Assembly: GCA_903838995.1 (NCBI GenBank)
Contig: CAIMAP010000013.1
Coordinates: 1-32,699, forward strand
DNA: 32,699 nucleotides
Reading direction: 5' to 3'
Source: an uncultured bacterium
GTDB lineage: Bacteria > Bacteroidota > Bacteroidia > Sphingobacteriales > Sphingobacteriaceae
In this document: positions 2,533-25,660 of the stretch, in pieces
Numbering within the stretch: position 1 is the stretch's first letter
How the letters are laid out: every line of letters begins with the position of its first letter
The notes under the pieces: model-generated
What the model was told of the DNA's origin: nothing
Databases searched by the model: none
The model's input: only the letters and a program-made list of their open reading frames with translations
Made by a program: the position numbers and the translations under genes

Positions 2533-4278
2533 ATGAAAAAAATTGTACTCAGTTTATTTTTATCATTCGTAGTATTTAGCGTATTTAATTTATTAGCGCC
2601 AAATGCCATTTCTGAACCTTCTGGCGGACCTGCAGGAAATTCAGGCTCCCCATCAGATGCTACTACCTGCGCAGAGTCTTGCCATGGTGGAAGTGCAGTT
2701 ACACAAGCAGGTTTAATTACTTCTAATATTCCAACTGCTGGTTATACCCCAGGATCAACATATACCATAACCGCATCGGTTAGTGGATCTGGCAATAAAG
2801 GATTTCAAGTTTCACCCCAAAACACTTCGGGAACACTATTGGGCTCTTTGATTGCGGGTTCGGGATCAAAAATTGTTGGCATCAAATACATCACACATTC
2901 CTCATCAAAATCTTCTTCTACTGCAACCTGGACTTTCCAATGGATTGCACCGGCAGCAGGAACCGGAAGTGTAACTTTTTATGGTGCATTTGCAATAACT
3001 CAAAATACAACTAAGAAAAGTACATTAGTTGTAAACGAAGCGGTGGTAGTAGTTGCACCAGTTATAACCAGCTTTACTCCAACTAATGCTGCAAGTGGCA
3101 CTACAGTTACCATCACAGGCACAGGATTTACTGGTGCCACAGCTGTTAAATTTGGTGGTACTCCCGCAAGTTCTTTTAATGTTGTTAATGGTACTAGTAT
3201 TCATGCAGTCGTAGGCGCCGGTGCCTCAGGCGATATATCTGTAACCACTCCGGCAGGAACAGCAACTAAAGCTGGATTTGTTTTGGTAATACCCCCAACT
3301 ATAACGCAATTTACACCTATAGCTGCTAAAAGCGGAGAAACGGTTACTATATTAGGTACAAACTTTACGAATGCCAGCGCAGTAAGATTTGGTGGCGTTA
3401 ATGCTAGGGCATTTACCATTCAAAATGATAATTTAATTACTGCCTCTTTAGCAAATGGCGCAACTGGTGATATATCAGTTGTTACACCAAACGGAACTGC
3501 TTCCTTAGCTGGATTTACATTTTTGAAAACAATTAAAATCAAATCATTCTATCCCGATTCTGCAAAAACTAACGATACCATTACCATTATAGGCGAAAAC
3601 TTTTCAGAGGTTTTAGATGTAACTTTTGGTAGCACAGCCGCATCTAGTTTTACCATCTTAAATGATACAATGATATTGGCTGCTGTTGGTGCTGGATCTA
3701 CTGGAGATGTAGGCTTGTCAGACAAATCAGGTACGGTAAGTGCCCCAGGATTTGTATACCTAGCGGTACCAAGAATTGGATCTTTTAGTCCAACAACAGC
3801 TAAAAGAGATGAAGTGGTTACCATTTATGGTAATGAATTATTAGATGTGAGCAATGTGTTGTTTGGTGGTCAAGCTGCAAATAGCTTTACTGTAATTTCA
3901 AATACTCAAATTGAAGCGCATGTTGGTAATGGCAACAGTGGTAATGTAACCGTTGTCGCACCAAATGGTTCGGATTCAAAACCAGGATTTATTTTTGGAA
4001 CAAGTATTGGAATTAATCAGCAGGGCAATACAAATGGTTTATTAAAGGCCTACCCTAACCCTGCTAACAATAATATTCAAATTCAAATTCCAATTTCTTT
4101 AACGAATAGTAAAATTGCGATCTACAATTTATTAGGGGAAGAAATTTTTAGCCATGAAATTGCAGCACAAACAAATGCTATTTTCATTGCGATAAATGAC
4201 TGGAAAGCGGGAAGCTATATTATCAGATGGAATGATCAAAGTACTACACTAAGTAGTTCATTCCTTAAATCAAATTAA
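2533..4278 (+). CDS. Secreted surface protein: choice-of-anchor V domain, four IPT/TIG repeats, T9SS sorting domain
   Basis: A 581-residue protein with a signal peptide (residues 1-27). Residues ~29-173 match the paralogue at 5418 and resemble the choice-of-anchor V (Reelin-like) group: GGPAGNSGSP, then C46-AES-C50-H51, then GFQVSPQ, GSLIAGSGSKI and APAAGTG. Four IPT/TIG immunoglobulin-like repeats follow at about 177-253, 256-331, 336-411 and 414-488, each opening with a variant of I.SFTP..A..G..VTI.G..F and ending in a GF hydrophobic strand. The C-terminus (~504-580, AYPNP ... GSYIIRW) is a T9SS type A sorting domain, so the protein should be exported across the outer membrane and attached to or released from the surface. 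The CX3CH motif is one residue longer than the standard haem c site. Its ligand is unknown. It faces the exosortase operon and ends at a bidirectional terminator. Confidence 0.88.
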   Translation: MKKIVLSLFLSFVVFSVFNLLAPNAISEPSGGPAGNSGSPSDATTCAESCHGGSAVTQAGLITSNIPTAGYTPGSTYTITASVSGSGNKGFQVSPQNTSGTLLGSLIAGSGSKIVGIKYITHSSSKSSSTATWTFQWIAPAAGTGSVTFYGAFAITQNTTKKSTLVVNEAVVVVAPVITSFTPTNAASGTTVTITGTGFTGATAVKFGGTPASSFNVVNGTSIHAVVGAGASGDISVTTPAGTATKAGFVLVIPPTITQFTPIAAKSGETVTILGTNFTNASAVRFGGVNARAFTIQNDNLITASLANGATGDISVVTPNGTASLAGFTFLKTIKIKSFYPDSAKTNDTITIIGENFSEVLDVTFGSTAASSFTILNDTMILAAVGAGSTGDVGLSDKSGTVSAPGFVYLAVPRIGSFSPTTAKRDEVVTIYGNELLDVSNVLFGGQAANSFTVISNTQIEAHVGNGNSGNVTVVAPNGSDSKPGFIFGTSIGINQQGNTNGLLKAYPNPANNNIQIQIPISLTNSKIAIYNLLGEEIFSHEIAAQTNAIFIAINDWKAGSYIIRWNDQSTTLSSSFLKSN

Positions 4279-4296
4279 TAATAGAATTGTAAAATT

Positions 4297-4333
4297 AAAA
4301 AAGAGGAATAGGTTATACTTATTCCTCTTTTTT
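4297..4333. terminator. Bidirectional intrinsic terminator
   Basis: Perfect 14-bp stem (4297-4310 with 4320-4333: aaaaaagaggaata / tattcctctttttt) around a 9-nt loop, with T-runs on the 3' side in both directions. It terminates the surface-protein gene from the left and the exosortase operon from the right. The minus-strand stop codon (4319-4321) and the last codons (KKEE) of the small membrane protein are encoded inside it. Confidence 0.88.
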
Positions 4334-4711
4334 TTCTTCCAATAAAAATTTATGTAATAGCCCCATCGATACATAAAGTGTGGGTGCAATTAAAAACTCA
4401 TTAATTTCAAATAATACCACCCTGATATTTAAAGGCAGCGGATGAACGATCCAATCAAATGCTCCAAAGCTAATGATGATAGAGATTCCAGAGATATGTA
4501 CAATATGCCAAATAGTTTGCATCCAGGCTATTTTTTCTAAATTCAATTGCCTTAAACCAATTAAATAAACCGTAATCAACATCGTAAATTTAATCAGGTG
4601 TCTTATTTTACGAGGAATTAATTCGAAGTTTGGTGATTCAAAAAAGAAAATATAATATGCAGAATACAGTAAAAACAATACCGTTAAACCAATCCAAAAT
4701 TTCCTAGGCAT
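4319..4711 (-). CDS. Small polytopic membrane protein partnered with the exosortase
   Basis: The ATG at 4711 gives 130 residues and overlaps the exosortase stop by 8 bp (ATG...TAG), so translation is probably coupled; a longer frame to 4771 runs deep into the exosortase gene and lacks support. Hydrophobic segments suggest about four membrane helices (near residues 5-22, 40-54, 66-84 and 105-120), with a charged tail EEKKEE. Bacteroidota exosortases such as XrtF and XrtX types are known to sit beside a small uncharacterised membrane protein of about this size; this gene fits by size, topology and position, but I cannot assign the precise family. A role as exosortase accessory or stabiliser is inference. 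The 3' end is embedded in a bidirectional terminator. Confidence 0.8.
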   Translation of the reverse strand: MPRKFWIGLTVLFLLYSAYYIFFFESPNFELIPRKIRHLIKFTMLITVYLIGLRQLNLEKIAWMQTIWHIVHISGISIIISFGAFDWIVHPLPLNIRVVLFEINEFLIAPTLYVSMGLLHKFLLEEKKEE

Positions 4712-5300
4712 GTTGATTAATTTTTTGATTGATTTGTGTAAAACGAACCCATAAGAAAAATACAATTCCATATACCATTACCTTAAATAAATAATGGTGG
4801 GCAAAAAATAAAACTTTAGGATTAAAGTAGGCAAACATGGCTAGCCCCGTGCATCTTAATATGTTCACCAAAACAATTAATATTAAACCTAAAAATCCAT
4901 ACCTAATTTTAAGCCATAAAGATGCTGGATAAGCAATAAGGAAACCAATAAATAAAATAAATAAGCTTAGTCCATTGCAACCATCTGCAATACCAATTAA
5001 TTTCATTCCATCGGCAAAAATGGTTGTTTTTAAATAATCGAATTCTAGGGCTTCTACTTTTTCTCTTTGCAATACTTCTTTCACCACTATAGAATGCCCA
5101 GGCATCAATTTCTTAACACACCATGCAGTTGCATTGCCGGTAAACATGGAAAGTGGTTTATCGATAATACGAGTAGGTGCTAAAAAACCTAAGTAAACAA
5201 CCTGCCAAACTATTAATAAAACGAGTGCTTTAGTTGCAAAAGTTTTTACCGGTTTAGGGATCTCATTGATTGCTTTTAATGCTTTGTGTAAGTAATTCAT
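4704..5300 (-). CDS. Exosortase/archaeosortase-family transpeptidase
   Basis: A polytopic membrane protein of 198 residues from the ATG at 5300 (an upstream TTG two codons earlier is less likely). It shows the exosortase catalytic triad: Cys108 in ADGCNGLSLF, Arg149 in NILRCTG, and His168/His169 in FFAHHYLFK. Hydrophobic segments surround these motifs (near 24-41, 108-125, 135-150, 152-160 and 172-186). Exosortases cleave C-terminal sorting signals of exported proteins and are proposed to transfer them to a surface carrier. No classic PEP-CTERM-like tail (motif, transmembrane segment, basic end) is seen in this window; both flanking secreted proteins carry T9SS domains instead. It is the first gene of a two-gene minus-strand operon. 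The family is firm; the subtype and substrate are unknown. Confidence 0.9.
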   Translation of the reverse strand: MNYLHKALKAINEIPKPVKTFATKALVLLIVWQVVYLGFLAPTRIIDKPLSMFTGNATAWCVKKLMPGHSIVVKEVLQREKVEALEFDYLKTTIFADGMKLIGIADGCNGLSLFILFIGFLIAYPASLWLKIRYGFLGLILIVLVNILRCTGLAMFAYFNPKVLFFAHHYLFKVMVYGIVFFLWVRFTQINQKINQHA

Positions 5301-5417
5301 GTCCAAAATTAAACATACAATATTAAGAAATTAATTTAAATCTTATGTTTTTTGGTATTTGTCTATATTATTTTTTTTTGATCAATTTATTGCCTAGTTT
5401 GAAAAAAAAATAATTAG

Positions 5418-6200
5418 ATGAAAAAAATAGTAATCCTATCTTGCTTAACAATAGTAATTTCTGTTACTATTAGTTTATTTTCGAATATTGCGAGTTCTAA
5501 CCCTTCTGGAGGTCCAGCAGGCAACACGGGCTCCCCTGCAGATAAACAAACTTGTGCGCATTCGGGCTGTCATTCGGGTTCTGCATCAACTGTTTCAACT
5601 GGAATTTTATCGAGCTCTGTGCCAACCGAGGGATATAAACCAGGTGCTACTTATAATGTAATGGTTTCTCAAACTGGAACAGGTAGAAAAGGATTTCAAG
5701 TTTCTCCTCAAACAACTGCAGGTTTATTACGGGGTTCTTTAATTGCGGGTTCTGGTAGTAAAATAGTAAGTACAAAATATATAACACATAATGCATCTAA
5801 CTCTAGCAATCCATGTACTTGGAATTTTAAATGGGTAGCTCCTGCTGCTGGAACTGGCGATGTAACTTTTTACGGAGTTGTCGTTTTAGGCACTACTTCA
5901 ACCAAAAAAACCACTTTATTAGTTCATGAAGCAAGCACGGTACAAGGTGTAAGCAACGAGGCTAATGCCAAAATAAGCCTATATCCTAATCCTGCCATAG
6001 ATCAAATTCAAATTAAATTAGCAGATCATTTAACAACTGGTAAAGCGATGATATTTGATGAAAATGGGGAACTTATTCAAACTGAAAATTTCGATTCGAA
6101 TGAATTCAGTATGGATGTACAATCTATTCCTGCGGGGAACTATTACCTAAGGGTTACGGATGGTCAACACCAATACTTTAATCATTTTGTGAAAAAATAA
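5418..6200 (+). CDS. Secreted surface protein: choice-of-anchor V domain plus T9SS sorting domain
   Basis: A 260-residue protein that is a shorter paralogue of the one at 2533, lacking the IPT/TIG repeats. It has a signal peptide (residues ~1-27), then GGPAGNTGSP and C46-AHSG-C51-H52, a CX4CH spacing different from the CX3CH of its paralogue. The body keeps GFQVSPQ, GSLIAGSGSKI, KYITHN, and APAAGTGDVTFYG. The C-terminal 75 residues (LYPNPAIDQIQI ... AGNYYLRV) are a T9SS type A sorting domain. It is divergent from the exosortase gene across a 117-bp AT-rich gap and ends at a strong terminator. Function is unknown; the domain is described as occurring with several alternative anchors, which makes the adjacent exosortase noteworthy. 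Confidence 0.88.
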   Translation: MKKIVILSCLTIVISVTISLFSNIASSNPSGGPAGNTGSPADKQTCAHSGCHSGSASTVSTGILSSSVPTEGYKPGATYNVMVSQTGTGRKGFQVSPQTTAGLLRGSLIAGSGSKIVSTKYITHNASNSSNPCTWNFKWVAPAAGTGDVTFYGVVVLGTTSTKKTTLLVHEASTVQGVSNEANAKISLYPNPAIDQIQIKLADHLTTGKAMIFDENGELIQTENFDSNEFSMDVQSIPAGNYYLRVTDGQHQYFNHFVKK

Positions 6201-6215
6201 TTAAATTTTAATTAT

Positions 6216-6251
6216 AAAAAAAAAGACCAATTTAACGATTGGTCTTTTTTT
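6216..6251. terminator. Bidirectional intrinsic terminator
   Basis: The stem aaagaccaat / attggtcttt, extended by A-run and T-run to about 14-16 bp, encloses the 6-nt loop ttaacg. T-runs follow on both strands. It lies between the convergent surface-protein gene and the valS-to-EVE operon. Confidence 0.9.
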
Positions 6252-19267: not shown

Positions 19268-21550
19268 ATGAAAAAAATATTGGGATTTTGCCTCATCCTT
19301 TTAAATCTTACCCTTTCGGGCAATGCGCAGCATATTTTAGATTTTAAGCCTTATGATACCCAAAAAGCGGCCATTGTTGTAATTGAGAACGGTAAAACGC
19401 TTAAAGCTCCTTTTGCCGGAGGGGTTGATGCTGCTCAATTTGCCAGTTGCGACCTCAACTTAGATGGCAAAAAAGATATCATTGTGCATGATCGAGAGGG
19501 TTCCAAACTTTCTTGTTTCCTTAATATTGGAGGACCAAACGAAATAAATTATCAATACGATATTCGATATAACAATCGATTCCCTGTAATTGGCGAATGG
19601 ATGTTGATGATGGATTATAATGGAGATGGTAAAGAAGATTTATTTTGTGATAGAAATGGTGGCATTGCTTGCTACCAAAATATTTCCACCGATTCTTCAG
19701 GTTTAAAGTTTAAGTTAATTATAGATCAAATTATATTCAGCACCGCGCAATTTACCATAGCCATTGGCGTACCATCGAACGATATACCAAGTATTGCAGA
19801 TGTTGACGGAGATGGTGACTTAGACATTTTAAGATTTGGAGCTGCAACTATTACACCAGGCGAACCGATTGAATGGTTTAAAAATTTAACGGTAGAAAAA
19901 ACAGGCGTGGCAGGTATTGATACATTTGTGATTTGGAAAAGATGTTGGGGTAGATTTATTGAAGACAATAATGGTTGTACCATTCTGCTAAATTATGCCG
20001 GCACGCCTTGTAGCACAGGCAACAAAGTAGAAGTGCAATTGAGCCTTTCTGAATACCAAGCAAATTTAAATTTAGCGAACAAAAGCAATAGACATGCGGG
20101 TTCTACCTGTTTAGTTTATGACTTTACAGGTGATGGCAAAAATGATGTTTTAATTGGGGATGCCGGTTGCAACCAAATGTATTTAGCCATTAATGGTAGC
20201 GATAATACCAATGCCATCATGAATCAAGTTGTTACTAACTTTCCGAGTAGCTTACCTATTAATTTTGCCACCTTTCCTGCTGCATTTTTAATGGATGTAA
20301 ATAACGATGGCTTGAAAGATTTAATTGCTTGCCCCAATACACCTAATGCTAGCGAGAACTTTCAAAATGTATACTTGTATTTGAATCGAGGAAATGCAAG
20401 TTTACCTTATTATGTTTATGATAATGCACGCTTTTTAGCAGAAGAACAAATAGACATTGGAGAAGGCGCTTGCCCTAGTTTTGTCGATTATAACCAAGAT
20501 GGTTTAATAGATATTATGATTGGTAGCACTGGTTATTACCAAAGTAACGGCAGCTATAAAAGTGGTCTTACATTATATAAAAATATTGGCACTAAAACAA
20601 TTCCAAAATATGAGTTACAAACCCGCGATTATGCTGGGTTTTCGAGTATTGGCATTCAAAAGTTTTCGCCGGTATTTTTTGATGCAGACGCAGATGGCGA
20701 CATCGATATGATCACAGGAAGTAGCGATGGTAATTTTTATTATTTTAATAATAGTGCGGGTGCAGGTCAAATATTCAATTTAAATTATATTCCAAATACC
20801 TTTAGCAATTTAGATATTGGAAATAACTCCAGCCCTACTGCTTACGACCTCGATAAAGATGGCATACAAGATTTAATTTCTGGAGAAAATTTTTACAATA
20901 TTAATTTTCTTAAAGGGCAGTCAAATAGCCAACCTGCTTATGTTTTAGCCACCGATTCGCTTTATAAAATAAACCTAGGTAACATGTTTAATTATCCAAG
21001 TGGTAGAGCTTCGGTTGCAATCAAAAAGTTATTTACAAATGACCGAGATCGATTTATGTTTAGCGATGCGAATGGTTATGTTTACTGTTTAGATAGTTTA
21101 TACACCGACCCCAATCAATCAAATGTAAAAATTACGAATTTGGTAGATTTGATGCAAGGTGTTTATTCCTATTCAAACGGCGGTTTTAAAATTGATTTAG
21201 CAGATATAGATGACGATGGTAAAGCGGAATTAATTGCCGGTACCCCAAGAGGTGGTGTGGCCATTTATTGGAATGCTAGTTCGGCGCCAGTTGGATTAAA
21301 TCAAATCAGAAACAACACCTTAATCTCATACCCAAACCCATGTGAATCAATATTTTACATTGAAATTCCTTGGAATGAAAAATTAAATTTATTGAGGGTA
21401 ACCGACTTAATGGGCATTAAAAAAGATATTCCATTTAGCCTGCAAAACAATCAAATTAAACTAGAAAGTAGTAGCTTAGTACCTGGTTTTTATGTAGTAG
21501 ATATACAAACAAATCAACACCGTTACAGTTCCAAGTTTATCAAAAAATAA
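19268..21550 (+). CDS. FG-GAP/VCBS-repeat secreted protein with T9SS sorting domain, copy 1
   Basis: A 760-residue protein from the ATG at 19268 (a TTG six codons upstream is unlikely). Signal peptide MKKILGFCLILLNLTLSGNAQ. The body contains about nine calcium-loop motifs of FG-GAP/VCBS type (DLNLDGKKD, DYNGDGKED, DVDGDGDLD, DFTGDGKND, DVNNDGLKD, DYNQDGLID, DADADGDID, DLDKDGIQD, DIDDDGKAE), suggesting a seven-bladed integrin-alpha-like propeller plus extra repeats. The C-terminal ~75 residues (SYPNPCESIFYI ... PGFYVVDI) are a T9SS type A sorting domain, so the product is expected on the cell surface or secreted. Its tandem paralogue starts directly after its stop codon. Role (adhesion or polymer binding) is inference. 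Confidence 0.92.
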   Translation: MKKILGFCLILLNLTLSGNAQHILDFKPYDTQKAAIVVIENGKTLKAPFAGGVDAAQFASCDLNLDGKKDIIVHDREGSKLSCFLNIGGPNEINYQYDIRYNNRFPVIGEWMLMMDYNGDGKEDLFCDRNGGIACYQNISTDSSGLKFKLIIDQIIFSTAQFTIAIGVPSNDIPSIADVDGDGDLDILRFGAATITPGEPIEWFKNLTVEKTGVAGIDTFVIWKRCWGRFIEDNNGCTILLNYAGTPCSTGNKVEVQLSLSEYQANLNLANKSNRHAGSTCLVYDFTGDGKNDVLIGDAGCNQMYLAINGSDNTNAIMNQVVTNFPSSLPINFATFPAAFLMDVNNDGLKDLIACPNTPNASENFQNVYLYLNRGNASLPYYVYDNARFLAEEQIDIGEGACPSFVDYNQDGLIDIMIGSTGYYQSNGSYKSGLTLYKNIGTKTIPKYELQTRDYAGFSSIGIQKFSPVFFDADADGDIDMITGSSDGNFYYFNNSAGAGQIFNLNYIPNTFSNLDIGNNSSPTAYDLDKDGIQDLISGENFYNINFLKGQSNSQPAYVLATDSLYKINLGNMFNYPSGRASVAIKKLFTNDRDRFMFSDANGYVYCLDSLYTDPNQSNVKITNLVDLMQGVYSYSNGGFKIDLADIDDDGKAELIAGTPRGGVAIYWNASSAPVGLNQIRNNTLISYPNPCESIFYIEIPWNEKLNLLRVTDLMGIKKDIPFSLQNNQIKLESSSLVPGFYVVDIQTNQHRYSSKFIKK

Positions 21551-23839
21551 ATGAAAAAAATATTATTAATTGCGTGTTGTTTTTTAGTTGACATCGCCTT
21601 AGCACAAAATTTCACAGGAGGTTTTATCCCCTACCCAAATACCATTCCAGTAAATCAAAACAATAAAAATATTAGTTTGCCATTTGGTGGAGGCTTTGAT
21701 GTAACGCAGTTTTCGGCTTGTGACTTAGATTTTGATGGCAAAAAAGATATCGTCATTTTTGATCGAGAAGGCGGCAAAATTACTTGCTACCTTAATAAAG
21801 GAAATACCGGACAAATTGCTTATGAATATGCGCCACAATACGCCGCTAAATTTCCTAAAAAACTAACGGAATGGATGTTATTAGTCGATTATAATGGCGA
21901 TGGCAAAGAAGATATTTTTACAGCCATTCCTGGCGGTGTAAAAATTTATAAAAATACTTCAACTACCTTAAATGGTATTTCCTTTAGTTTAGTCAATGGA
22001 GATGTACAAGCCGACTTTGGCTCTTTTATAACAAGGCTATATAGCGGCCCTGCAGACATTCCAGCGATTATAGATGCAGACGATGATGGTGATATAGATA
22101 TACTTAGTATGGAGCTAGGAATCGATACCGCAGGCGACGGCATTTATATGTATAAAAACATGTCGATGGAAACCTATGGTAACAAAGATTCTGTCAATAA
22201 TTTTATCGTTCATAAAAGATGTTGGGGAAGGTTTAGAGAATCTTACCAAAATTGCAATGTATCATTACAATACCAAAGTGGTCCTTGTGCTACTGGCAAT
22301 CGTTACATACCTGAATATACAAAATCTGAATTTGAAAATTTAGTTGCCAAAAAATTAACAAGTGGCAAACATTCGGGCTCTACTTTATTGGTTTTTGATT
22401 CGAATGGCGATGGTAAAAAAGATGTTTTAATCGGTGATATTGGATGTAATAATATGTACCTGTTAGAAAATACCGAAAACAATACCAACCCTATATTTAC
22501 AGCATTTTACAGGTTTTATCCAACTATAGATCCAATTTTAGTGGAGAGTTTTCCGGCGGCATTTTTTATTGATGTAAATAACGATAATAAACGAGATTTA
22601 ATTGCCGCGCCTAATACAACAGGCAATGCAGACAATTTTGAAAATTGTAAATTGTATTTGAACATGGGAACAGATTCGGCACCAGATTTTGTACTGAGCA
22701 CCAATGCATTTTTAGAAGAAGAAATGATTGAAGTGGGCGAAGGTTCACATCCGGTATTTGTTGATTTCGACCAACATGGACTCATGGATTTTGTTGTGAG
22801 TACCACCGGTTATTTTCATTCAAATGGTACTTATAAATCTGGATTAACTGCGTATAAAAATGTGGGAAGCCCTACTATCCCTGCATTTGAGCTCGTTAGT
22901 AGAGACCTGTGGTCATTATCAAATTTTAATATCTCCAACATGGTTCCAACTTTTGGAGATGTAGATTTAGACGGTGATATAGATATGATAACGGGCGCTA
23001 ATGATGGCACCTTTTATTATTTCGAAAATACGGCAGGTGCTAGTAATCCATTTCAATTTAATTTTAAATCTAATTATTTGACTGGTTTAGATGTTGGCAA
23101 TTTATCTACCCCATTTTTAAATACAAGCTTGAGTATGAGTCCAAACTCAAGACTAGCAATGATTTCGGGCGAAAGATTTGACAATATTAATTATTGGCAG
23201 GATACTTCAAATACGGCAGAACCTAAATTTAAATTAAAGTCCGACTCTTTATTTAAAATTAATATGAGAGCCGTTTCGGGTTTTCCAAGTGGAAGAACCA
23301 CCGCAATTATTCAAAAATTATTTAACAGCGACCAAGAACGATTAGTGGTATCAAATGCCAATGGGAAAGTTTATATTTTCAACCATATCGATAAATTAAT
23401 GTTATCTGTTGGTCCTGCAGTAATAGATTCTATCGATTTAATGCAAGGCCAATATACTTTAAGCAATGGAGGGTTTGGTATTACCATGGCAGATATTGAC
23501 GGAGACAACAAGCCAGAGCTTTTGGCAGGCAATCCTCAGGGCGGTTTAGTTTTGTTTAAAAATCAAATTACGCCCTATGGCATTAAACAAACACAACTTA
23601 GCCAATCGACTGTTAAATGTTACCCCAATCCTACTAGCCATCTGCTGCAGTTACAAAGTATAACAAACAATAAAATAAAGGCTTGTACCTTGATGAATCA
23701 ATTAGGTCAATCAATCATCCAACAAAACATAGATGCGATTGCTGGCGAATTGAATGTAAGTGCAATTCCTAATGGCGTTTATATTTTAAAAATAGCAACA
23801 ACCGATGGTATTCAATTTGAAAAAATAATAAAGCAGTAA
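21551..23839 (+). CDS. FG-GAP/VCBS-repeat secreted protein with T9SS sorting domain, copy 2
   Basis: A 762-residue tandem paralogue of the preceding gene, beginning at the very next base after its stop. Signal peptide MKKILLIACCFLVDIALAQN. The order of repeats is conserved (DLDFDGKKD, DYNGDGKED, DADDDGDID, DSNGDGKKD, DVNNDNKRD, DFDQHGLMD, DVDLDGDID, DIDGDNKPE); two loops are degenerate compared with copy 1 (DVNNDNKRD lacks the loop glycine, DFDQHGLMD has His for Asp). Both copies share KRCWGRF and the Cys-containing segment GPCATGN / GTPCSTGN. The C-terminus (CYPNPTSHLLQL ... NGVYILKI) is a T9SS type A domain. It is convergent with the MbnH-like gene with a one-base gap and no terminator that I can see. 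Confidence 0.92.
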   Translation: MKKILLIACCFLVDIALAQNFTGGFIPYPNTIPVNQNNKNISLPFGGGFDVTQFSACDLDFDGKKDIVIFDREGGKITCYLNKGNTGQIAYEYAPQYAAKFPKKLTEWMLLVDYNGDGKEDIFTAIPGGVKIYKNTSTTLNGISFSLVNGDVQADFGSFITRLYSGPADIPAIIDADDDGDIDILSMELGIDTAGDGIYMYKNMSMETYGNKDSVNNFIVHKRCWGRFRESYQNCNVSLQYQSGPCATGNRYIPEYTKSEFENLVAKKLTSGKHSGSTLLVFDSNGDGKKDVLIGDIGCNNMYLLENTENNTNPIFTAFYRFYPTIDPILVESFPAAFFIDVNNDNKRDLIAAPNTTGNADNFENCKLYLNMGTDSAPDFVLSTNAFLEEEMIEVGEGSHPVFVDFDQHGLMDFVVSTTGYFHSNGTYKSGLTAYKNVGSPTIPAFELVSRDLWSLSNFNISNMVPTFGDVDLDGDIDMITGANDGTFYYFENTAGASNPFQFNFKSNYLTGLDVGNLSTPFLNTSLSMSPNSRLAMISGERFDNINYWQDTSNTAEPKFKLKSDSLFKINMRAVSGFPSGRTTAIIQKLFNSDQERLVVSNANGKVYIFNHIDKLMLSVGPAVIDSIDLMQGQYTLSNGGFGITMADIDGDNKPELLAGNPQGGLVLFKNQITPYGIKQTQLSQSTVKCYPNPTSHLLQLQSITNNKIKACTLMNQLGQSIIQQNIDAIAGELNVSAIPNGVYILKIATTDGIQFEKIIKQ

Positions 23840-23840
23840 A

Positions 23841-24926
23841 TTATTTTTTGAAAGGATTTTGATAGGCAGGATTGTGTGTAAAAGCAGTATCTGTTAATGT
23901 TTTTAAGAACGCAATAACTTGTTGTTTTTCGGTGCTTGTTAAACCTAAACCACCATACTGCTCAAGCCTTTCGGGCGATTTAGTAAAATTAATATCTAAA
24001 TTGGCATTTTGCTTAATTCCCGAACTATAAAAATCCATTACATCGGCCAAAGTTGCCAAACGACCATCGTGCATATAAGGCCCTGTCAATTCAATATTAC
24101 GCAAGGTAGGCACCTTAAACTTTCCATTGTCTGTTGCTTTTTTAGTAACAAATGATAATCCTTTTCCAATCATTTCTTGATCAGTAAGCAAACCATTATT
24201 TCTGAAAATAGTATCTAAATTATGGGCAAGCAAAGTGCCATTTGCTCCATGACAATGAAAACATTGGCCTCTTTCGGTAAAGAAAATTCTAAAGCCTGCA
24301 TATTCTTCTGCTGTGAATGCCCGCTCTTGTATTTCGTAAAACTTGTCGTAAGTAGATTGGTTCGAAACAATAATTCTTTCAAATTGTGAAATGGCTTTGG
24401 CAATCATTTCTGGCGTTACCGTTGCGCTGCCAAATGCTTGTTTAAATAGCGGTGCATATCTTTTAGAACGACTTAATTTTGTAGCCACATTTTCGCTGGT
24501 TTCGTGCATTTCTAATGGGTTGTTTATTGGGCCCAATGCTTGCTCCTCCAAGCTTCCTGCACGTCCGTTCCAAAAGAATTTTCTCTGCCAAGCTAAGTTA
24601 ATTATTGCCATTGCATTAACATCACCTGTAGCACCTGCAACTCCTACACTGTATTTTTTATTTTCAGCAAATGAACTCGATATGTTATGACAACTTGCAC
24701 AACTAATGGTACTGTCACTTGATAAAATTGGATCGTAAAATAACATTCTACCCAAACTAACACCAGACTTAGTCAAAGGGTTGTTTGTTGGTGAAATTAA
24801 TTGAGGAAAATAAGGAGGTGCTTTAAAATCATAAGTGTCGTCTGGCGCTGCAGTATGCTCTACACATGCCTGCATAATTAGCACAGCCGATAATAACAAT
24901 ATTCCAATTACAGCAAACTTTTTCAT
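23841..24926 (-). CDS. Dihaem cytochrome c peroxidase, MauG/MbnH-like lipoprotein
   Basis: A 361-residue protein with an export signal ending in a probable lipobox (MQAC, Cys21). Two covalent haem c sites: C76-AS-C79-H80 and C222-FH-C225-H226. It also shows FWNGRAGSLEEQALGPINNPLEM, TERGQCFHCHG, PTLRNIELTGPYMHDGRLATL (285-286 Met-His) and the C-terminal IAFLKTL of the bacterial dihaem peroxidase/MauG superfamily. It sits 2 bp behind an MbnP-like gene. In methanobactin systems the MauG relative MbnH oxidises a tryptophan of MbnP to kynurenine; here the pairing suggests protein modification or copper-linked chemistry instead of simple H2O2 removal. No methanobactin precursor or biosynthesis genes are present. 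Confidence 0.9.
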   Translation of the reverse strand: MKKFAVIGILLLSAVLIMQACVEHTAAPDDTYDFKAPPYFPQLISPTNNPLTKSGVSLGRMLFYDPILSSDSTISCASCHNISSSFAENKKYSVGVAGATGDVNAMAIINLAWQRKFFWNGRAGSLEEQALGPINNPLEMHETSENVATKLSRSKRYAPLFKQAFGSATVTPEMIAKAISQFERIIVSNQSTYDKFYEIQERAFTAEEYAGFRIFFTERGQCFHCHGANGTLLAHNLDTIFRNNGLLTDQEMIGKGLSFVTKKATDNGKFKVPTLRNIELTGPYMHDGRLATLADVMDFYSSGIKQNANLDINFTKSPERLEQYGGLGLTSTEKQQVIAFLKTLTDTAFTHNPAYQNPFKK

Positions 24927-24928
24927 CC

Positions 24929-25660
24929 TTATTTAAGTGTAAAAACACTTACCCCGTTTTGTTTAAACAACAATTGTTTTTGTTGGTCTTCCATCATATA
25001 ACCATAACCATCGTTCAAATTGATTTTATTAATGCCGTTAAACCATTGCTCCATGTTCACTTGCAAATCTATATTTTGATCGTTGCTATTGACCGTTAAA
25101 TCTAAAGGGAATTCGTTGTAAAATTGATTAGGTGTAACGCCTAAGTGAATTGCATAACCTACGGTATCGTTTTTCGTATTTTGAAACACCCCTTCCATCA
25201 TCATAAAATGATAGCCGCCTCCTAAGGTAAATGGCCATTCCATCGAATTGTTTTCAGAATTATTTGGCAAACCAAAAGGGAAAGTATTTCTAGCAGAATC
25301 CACACCAAACACAAAAGAAATTTTACTGTACTTTCCGTTTGGAATATTTGCTAAAGTATAATTTTGATAATTAGTATTTTGTTCCATAGGGTTAATTAAT
25401 TTAACCATATTCACATCATACTTAGCCCCATTATTTTGGTAAAGTGTTAATTTAGAAATATAATATTTTAAATTTTTGATATTAAATTTATTCCCAGTTG
25501 TGGTAGTATAAATTAACTGATTGCTTTCTAAAATTTGTAAAGAAGAATCTTGAAAAGTATGCACAAAATTTACTTTTAAAGAACCGATTGAATCTTGGTT
25601 TTCCCAAGTACATCCCATCAAACTGAAAAACAATAAAACGAATAATAATTGAAGTTTCAT
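24929..25660 (-). CDS. MbnP-like lipoprotein, partner of the dihaem peroxidase
   Basis: A 243-residue lipoprotein with lipobox LMGC (Cys17). The layout matches the MbnP family: strand SLKVNFVHTFQ (His34), GNKFNIKNLKYYISKLTL, NIPNGKYSKISFVFGVDSA, then M140-E-W142-PFTLGGGYHFMMMEG (His151, three Met), and YAIHLG (His172). MbnP proteins are periplasmic copper binders in which a tryptophan is converted to kynurenine by the cognate MbnH; Trp142 in the MEW motif is my candidate for that residue, by inference. It is first in a two-gene operon with the MbnH-like peroxidase. A TAAATTTG box at 25677-25684 is a likely -7 element. Confidence 0.86.
   Translation of the reverse strand: MKLQLLFVLLFFSLMGCTWENQDSIGSLKVNFVHTFQDSSLQILESNQLIYTTTTGNKFNIKNLKYYISKLTLYQNNGAKYDVNMVKLINPMEQNTNYQNYTLANIPNGKYSKISFVFGVDSARNTFPFGLPNNSENNSMEWPFTLGGGYHFMMMEGVFQNTKNDTVGYAIHLGVTPNQFYNEFPLDLTVNSNDQNIDLQVNMEQWFNGINKINLNDGYGYMMEDQQKQLLFKQNGVSVFTLK

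Follow-up and report, generated by a model that had tools for sequence, protein, structure and literature searches.

A divergent XrtX-type exosortase encoded between two T9SS-tailed proteins probably serves PID-CTERM proteins encoded elsewhere in a Bacteroidota genome

Introduction

The exosortase studied here, whose gene lies between two genes for choice-of-anchor V (CAV) proteins, most probably serves proteins with PID-CTERM tails that are encoded elsewhere in the same genome, its CAV neighbours being incidental. This view draws on sequence, synteny and co-occurrence, from which we infer the activity of the enzyme, the identity of its clients and the role of its membrane partner. The locus itself is an ordinary one: a divergent XrtX-type exosortase, a partner of unrecognised sequence, and a setting specific to one genus. 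What we call here the window is the whole stretch of DNA that was analysed, with a length of 32,699 nucleotides; it corresponds to contig C13 in the 2.0-Mb genome assembly of a lake bacterium from the Bacteroidota.

Organization of the locus

The general layout of the locus (Table 1) is the one proposed in an earlier, sequence-only reading of the window. ORF calls agree with its gene positions and orientations, with the exosortase and a small membrane protein inverted between two paralogous secreted proteins, CAV1 and CAV2 (58% identity over 175 aa), and with the 8-bp overlap of the exosortase and membrane-protein genes (4704-4711). The exosortase starts at a TTG at 5306 or, more likely, at an ATG at 5300. 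The same reading had the exosortase pair sealed on each side by a bidirectional terminator, which holds only in part: both hairpins are real (z -6.6 and -3.8 on the two strands for the one next to CAV1, and -4.6 and -4.9 for the one after CAV2), but they enclose a block formed by the membrane protein, the exosortase and CAV2, and not the exosortase pair alone. The hairpin next to CAV1 was missed by the consensus terminator scan and detected by the fold analysis, and no terminator was found in the gap of ~111-117 bp between the divergent exosortase and CAV2 genes. Elsewhere in the window, the contig end (3-894) carries a pair of related LuxR-type response regulators encoded in opposite directions, one of them cut by the edge.

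Table 1. Features of the exosortase locus, in window coordinates.
Feature	Position	Strand	Basis
CAV1: choice-of-anchor V domain, four TIG repeats, T9SS type A tail	2533..4278	+	ORF and family matches
Bidirectional hairpin terminator between the convergent CAV1 and membrane-protein genes	~4297..4333	.	Folds on both strands
Membrane protein, 130 aa, multi-helix, exosortase partner, no family match	4319..4711	-	Adjoins exosortase in other lineages too
XrtX-like exosortase; catalytic C108, R149, H168 (198-aa numbering)	4704..5306	-	Family match and alignments
Divergent intergenic region between exosortase and CAV2	5307..5417	.	Terminator scan: none found
CAV2: choice-of-anchor V domain, T9SS type A tail, without TIG repeats	5418..6200	+	Family matches
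Bidirectional hairpin terminator between the convergent CAV2 and EVE-domain genes	~6218..6251	.	Consensus scan and fold on both strands

The exosortase and its membrane partner

Membership of the exosortase/archaeosortase superfamily was judged by the curated cut-off of TIGR04178 and by the conserved Cys, Arg and His in membrane helices. The window enzyme scores 52.1 bits against that model (cut-off 23), and its C108, R149 and H168 do not vary when it is aligned with canonical XrtX or with its nearest relatives, in keeping with the intact motifs first read from the sequence. Its best family is exosortase X (NF046081), with 107.7 bits and below the curated cut-off of 170, followed by XrtF (TIGR04128), with 61.7 bits and below the curated cut-off of 90, and XrtY, with 48.5 bits. 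By these matches it is a divergent XrtX-type enzyme, which we call XrtX-like rather than file as XrtX. A genome-wide search found no second exosortase in the window's genome.

The 130-aa membrane protein has no Pfam or NCBIfam match, and a profile comparison with the XrtX-associated protein (NF046082) gave no match either. The AlphaFold models of the two proteins have a similar predicted order of helices, with the last helix broken near an invariant proline in both (P110 in the partner and P138 in the XrtX-associated protein), and Foldseek found no match with E <= 0.001 in the PDB for either. From these models a shared role or a remote kinship of the two proteins would be possible, though unproven. 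Outside the genus, a small membrane protein also follows the exosortase in loci L235-L240 and L215, with the 8-bp overlap recurring in L235, L237, L239 and L215.

PID-CTERM proteins as likely substrates

The sequence-only reading had considered a substrate encoded elsewhere, to be sought by scanning the genome for tagged tails, and this possibility is supported. In the window's genome, contigs C122, C128 and C186 each encode a PID-CTERM tail (NF046080) that scores over the cut-off. Two of the three are the C-termini of small secreted proteins that are complete (125 and 106 aa) and consist of PIDGG or PVDGG, then a hydrophobic stretch, and then a basic end. The tail on C122 (L120, 1-900) appears fused to an unrelated ORF, probably at a chimeric assembly junction.

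Among 100 relatives, an XrtX-like match was found in 36 of the 37 PID-CTERM-positive genomes (odds ratio 83, Fisher p 7e-12; like all the co-occurrence p-values here, this one ignores relatedness). The nearest exosortases outside the genus, found by a single-protein query, come from seven genomes (35-50% identity, one a partial match); all seven have PID-CTERM genes, and CAV was detected in none, in a search that had no positive of its own, although its model had matched 35 of 100 genomes in an earlier one. Together, the three tails elsewhere in the genome and this distribution argue that the exosortase most likely serves PID-CTERM proteins. Against this, genome G001 (84% complete) has the exosortase and gave no PID-CTERM match.

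In the canonical XrtX loci of other families, a gene for a large surface protein comes together with the gene of a PID-CTERM protein of ~60-80 aa, which adjoins XrtX, with XrtX itself, and with a gene for a ~155-aa membrane protein; a large Wzz/GNVR-AAA protein of exopolysaccharide type is often encoded close by. The window locus retains only the exosortase and the small membrane protein of this set, and the PID-CTERM genes of its genome are not adjacent to the exosortase. The pair at 4704-5306 and 4319-4711 most likely represents a stand-alone inner-membrane unit of XrtX type, consisting of a Cys/Arg/His enzyme and a small membrane partner. The PID-CTERM tail (P-[IV]-D-G-G, a hydrophobic helix and a basic end) would retain a small secreted protein in the inner membrane after Sec export, and the exosortase would cleave near the motif and pass it on to be displayed, probably in attachment to exopolysaccharide or a lipid. 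The PID-CTERM proteins on the three contigs named above are the likely clients. A literature search on PID-CTERM found no paper, and one including XrtX found none on the XrtX enzyme.

PID-CTERM genes downstream of T9SS type A genes

An unexpected pattern came to light in the gene order around PID-CTERM genes. We counted the neighbours of these genes in loci L116, L117, L123-L151, L182-L210 and L242-L251, with a profile built from 26 of the T9SS tails of the window's own genome. A T9SS type A gene lies directly upstream, on the same strand, of 43 of 64 PID-CTERM genes, or 43 of the 52 that have a same-strand upstream neighbour, usually within ~110 bp, and a T9SS-tailed neighbour lies downstream of none of the 64; only four other T9SS-tailed ORFs occur in the same stretches. 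This context count relies on mechanical gene calls and on a sample that favours high-scoring PID hits. The order is seen in 32 of the 39 PID-CTERM genes without XrtX within 1.5 kb; in the window's genome, two of its three PID-CTERM genes conform to it. An NCBIfam scan of ten upstream proteins placed all ten above the threshold of TIGR04183. A literature search, in an incomplete library, found no report of this gene order.

These counts suggest an extension, and not a replacement, of the reading in which the exosortase serves PID-CTERM proteins: the clients would act as partners of the T9SS surface proteins encoded just upstream, with XrtX and T9SS co-operating there and the CAV flanks again incidental. 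We hold this extension tentatively, at somewhat short of an even chance. Its evidence is that of gene order, only 11 of 25 XrtX-adjacent loci fit, some tails there being without the YPNP motif, and the upstream proteins, with their tails removed, form one single-linkage homology cluster, so that the whole arrangement may be one widespread two-gene cassette. In its most specific form, which is possible though slightly less than probable, XrtX of Bacteroidota would work with T9SS in that the PID-CTERM substrate, whose gene immediately follows that of a large T9SS type A surface protein, is needed for the assembly of the latter, its retention, or its link to a polysaccharide matrix. If true, exosortase and T9SS sorting would converge on one surface complex.

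In F. johnsoniae, mutants deleted for xrtF or for its partner show defects in biofilm and colonisation that resemble those of T9SS mutants (PMC10936215), phenotypes that fit, without proving, a functional link between exosortase and T9SS. The substrates of Bacteroidota exosortases are poorly known, and a group of genes that tracks XrtX-like genes and follows T9SS type A genes in 33 of the 45 genera sampled (genera that are not independent, with some of the labels for the last ten loci grouped by hand) would offer a testable reason for the biofilm phenotypes shared by exosortase and T9SS mutants. The idea, already present in the sequence-only reading, that the exosortase system touches T9SS cargo gains support from the position of PID-CTERM genes beside T9SS genes, and not from the CAV flanks. 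The gene order supports a link between XrtX and T9SS that is genomic, not yet functional, and that would not run via the flanking proteins.

The flanking proteins

CAV1 and CAV2, the only choice-of-anchor V proteins in the window's genome, score 76.8 and 69.6 bits against choice_anch_V (NF041895; cut-off 42), and their tails score 37.3 and 38.9 bits against the T9SS type A model Por_Secre_tail (TIGR04183; cut-off 23). Neither has a PID-CTERM match, a C-terminal helix or a CTERM motif, and both end in the T9SS domain, as had been noticed from the sequence. The genome contains 62 T9SS type A tails, and because of them the T9SS machinery (PorU and others) is implied to be present. As T9SS cargo with T9SS tails, CAV1 and CAV2 would presumably be substrates of the T9SS sortase.

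A different alternative, also raised in the sequence-only reading, is that CAV1 and CAV2, or T9SS cargo generally, are direct targets of the exosortase or its partner, which might, for instance, attach a lipid or sugar carrier to them; the locus would then join two anchoring systems. The sandwich is present in five of the six genomes of the genus, which led us to reject the idea of a sandwich confined to a single genome; the sixth genome is 83% complete and is missing the upstream gene as well. This retained adjacency would favour direct action, as would the frequent position of PID-CTERM genes immediately downstream of T9SS type A genes and the F. johnsoniae mutants mentioned above. However, synteny extends beyond the window's genome only as far as the genus: among the 100 relatives and the further loci read, no XrtX-like gene outside it had a CAV gene as its neighbour. 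The exosortase and membrane-protein pair occurs without CAV in L235-L240, and the order in L215 is PID-CTERM, exosortase, membrane protein. Over the 100 relatives, XrtX and CAV co-occur more weakly than XrtX and PID-CTERM, with an odds ratio of 3.6, the genus itself being included, and within the class the odds ratio is 1.0, with no co-variation; CAV is common in genomes without an XrtX-like match. Moreover, some adjacency of XrtX-like genes and T9SS tails is expected because each is widespread, and the CAV proteins lack the C-terminal features of exosortase substrates described above. With CAV also undetected in the seven genomes of the nearest non-genus exosortases, we rejected the CAV flanks as exosortase clients, and consider direct action on CAV or T9SS cargo improbable. 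A literature search for choice-of-anchor proteins with exosortases found no report.

In the tree, the ten CAV domains of the genus group together as a single, fully supported clade, which fits a single duplication in the ancestor of the genus as the origin of CAV1 and CAV2. The simplest reading is that the CAV neighbours are an incidental quirk of the genus, their position resulting from a local duplication that took place beside or around an exosortase unit independent of them.

Least likely of all is that the exosortase gene is a remnant, in decay or without function: it does lie away from exopolysaccharide and PID-CTERM genes, but the catalytic residues are intact, the protein is 95-98% identical among close species, a conservation equal to that of the housekeeping genes nearby, and PID-CTERM tails exist in the genome.

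Some additional features of these proteins and of the window deserve mention. CAV2 (5418-6200) shares only 62-65% identity with its counterparts in three species, where neighbouring genes are 91-100% identical, and is closer (77%) to the counterpart in the more distant G002; as a surface protein, it may have changed rapidly or been subject to allele exchange. Near the start of 39 of 40 choice-of-anchor V domains (window 2533-3060 and 5418-5900; L034-L063) there is a C-x(2-5)-CH motif, a putative haem site that resembles a c-type one with variable spacing. At 23841-25660, a di-haem peroxidase (CCP_MauG) adjoins an MbnP-family protein, a pair that we take to resemble MbnH-MbnP pairs. Another pair of paralogues is encoded at 19268-23839, where the genes of two T9SS-tailed proteins with FG-GAP repeats lie in tandem.

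Comparison with known systems

Both flanking proteins belong with the known choice-of-anchor V proteins with a T9SS type A tail (NF041895, TIGR04183), scoring above both cut-offs, and differ from them in that CAV1 has four additional TIG repeats. Their tie to the exosortase is one of position only, within the genus.

The window pair is also similar to XrtF (TIGR04128) and TIGR04127 of F. johnsoniae (Fjoh_1448/1449), a two-gene set of exosortase and small membrane protein from Bacteroidota in which deletion of either gene affects biofilm, and whose XrtF substrates are not identified in that study (PMC10936215). It differs in the score of its exosortase (61.7 bits, under the cut-off of 90) and in its partner, which has no TIGR04127 match.

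A further close system is that of XrtX (NF046081, with PID-CTERM, NF046080, and the XrtX-associated membrane protein, NF046082). The window exosortase differs from it in scoring 107.7 bits against a cut-off of 170 and in having AHHYLF where canonical XrtX has NHTYTF, its partner has no NF046082 match, and the locus has no PID-CTERM or exopolysaccharide gene. Nevertheless, XrtX is its best-scoring family, the catalytic residues are the same, a small multi-helix membrane protein is encoded directly downstream of the exosortase, and PID-CTERM tails are present in the same genome.
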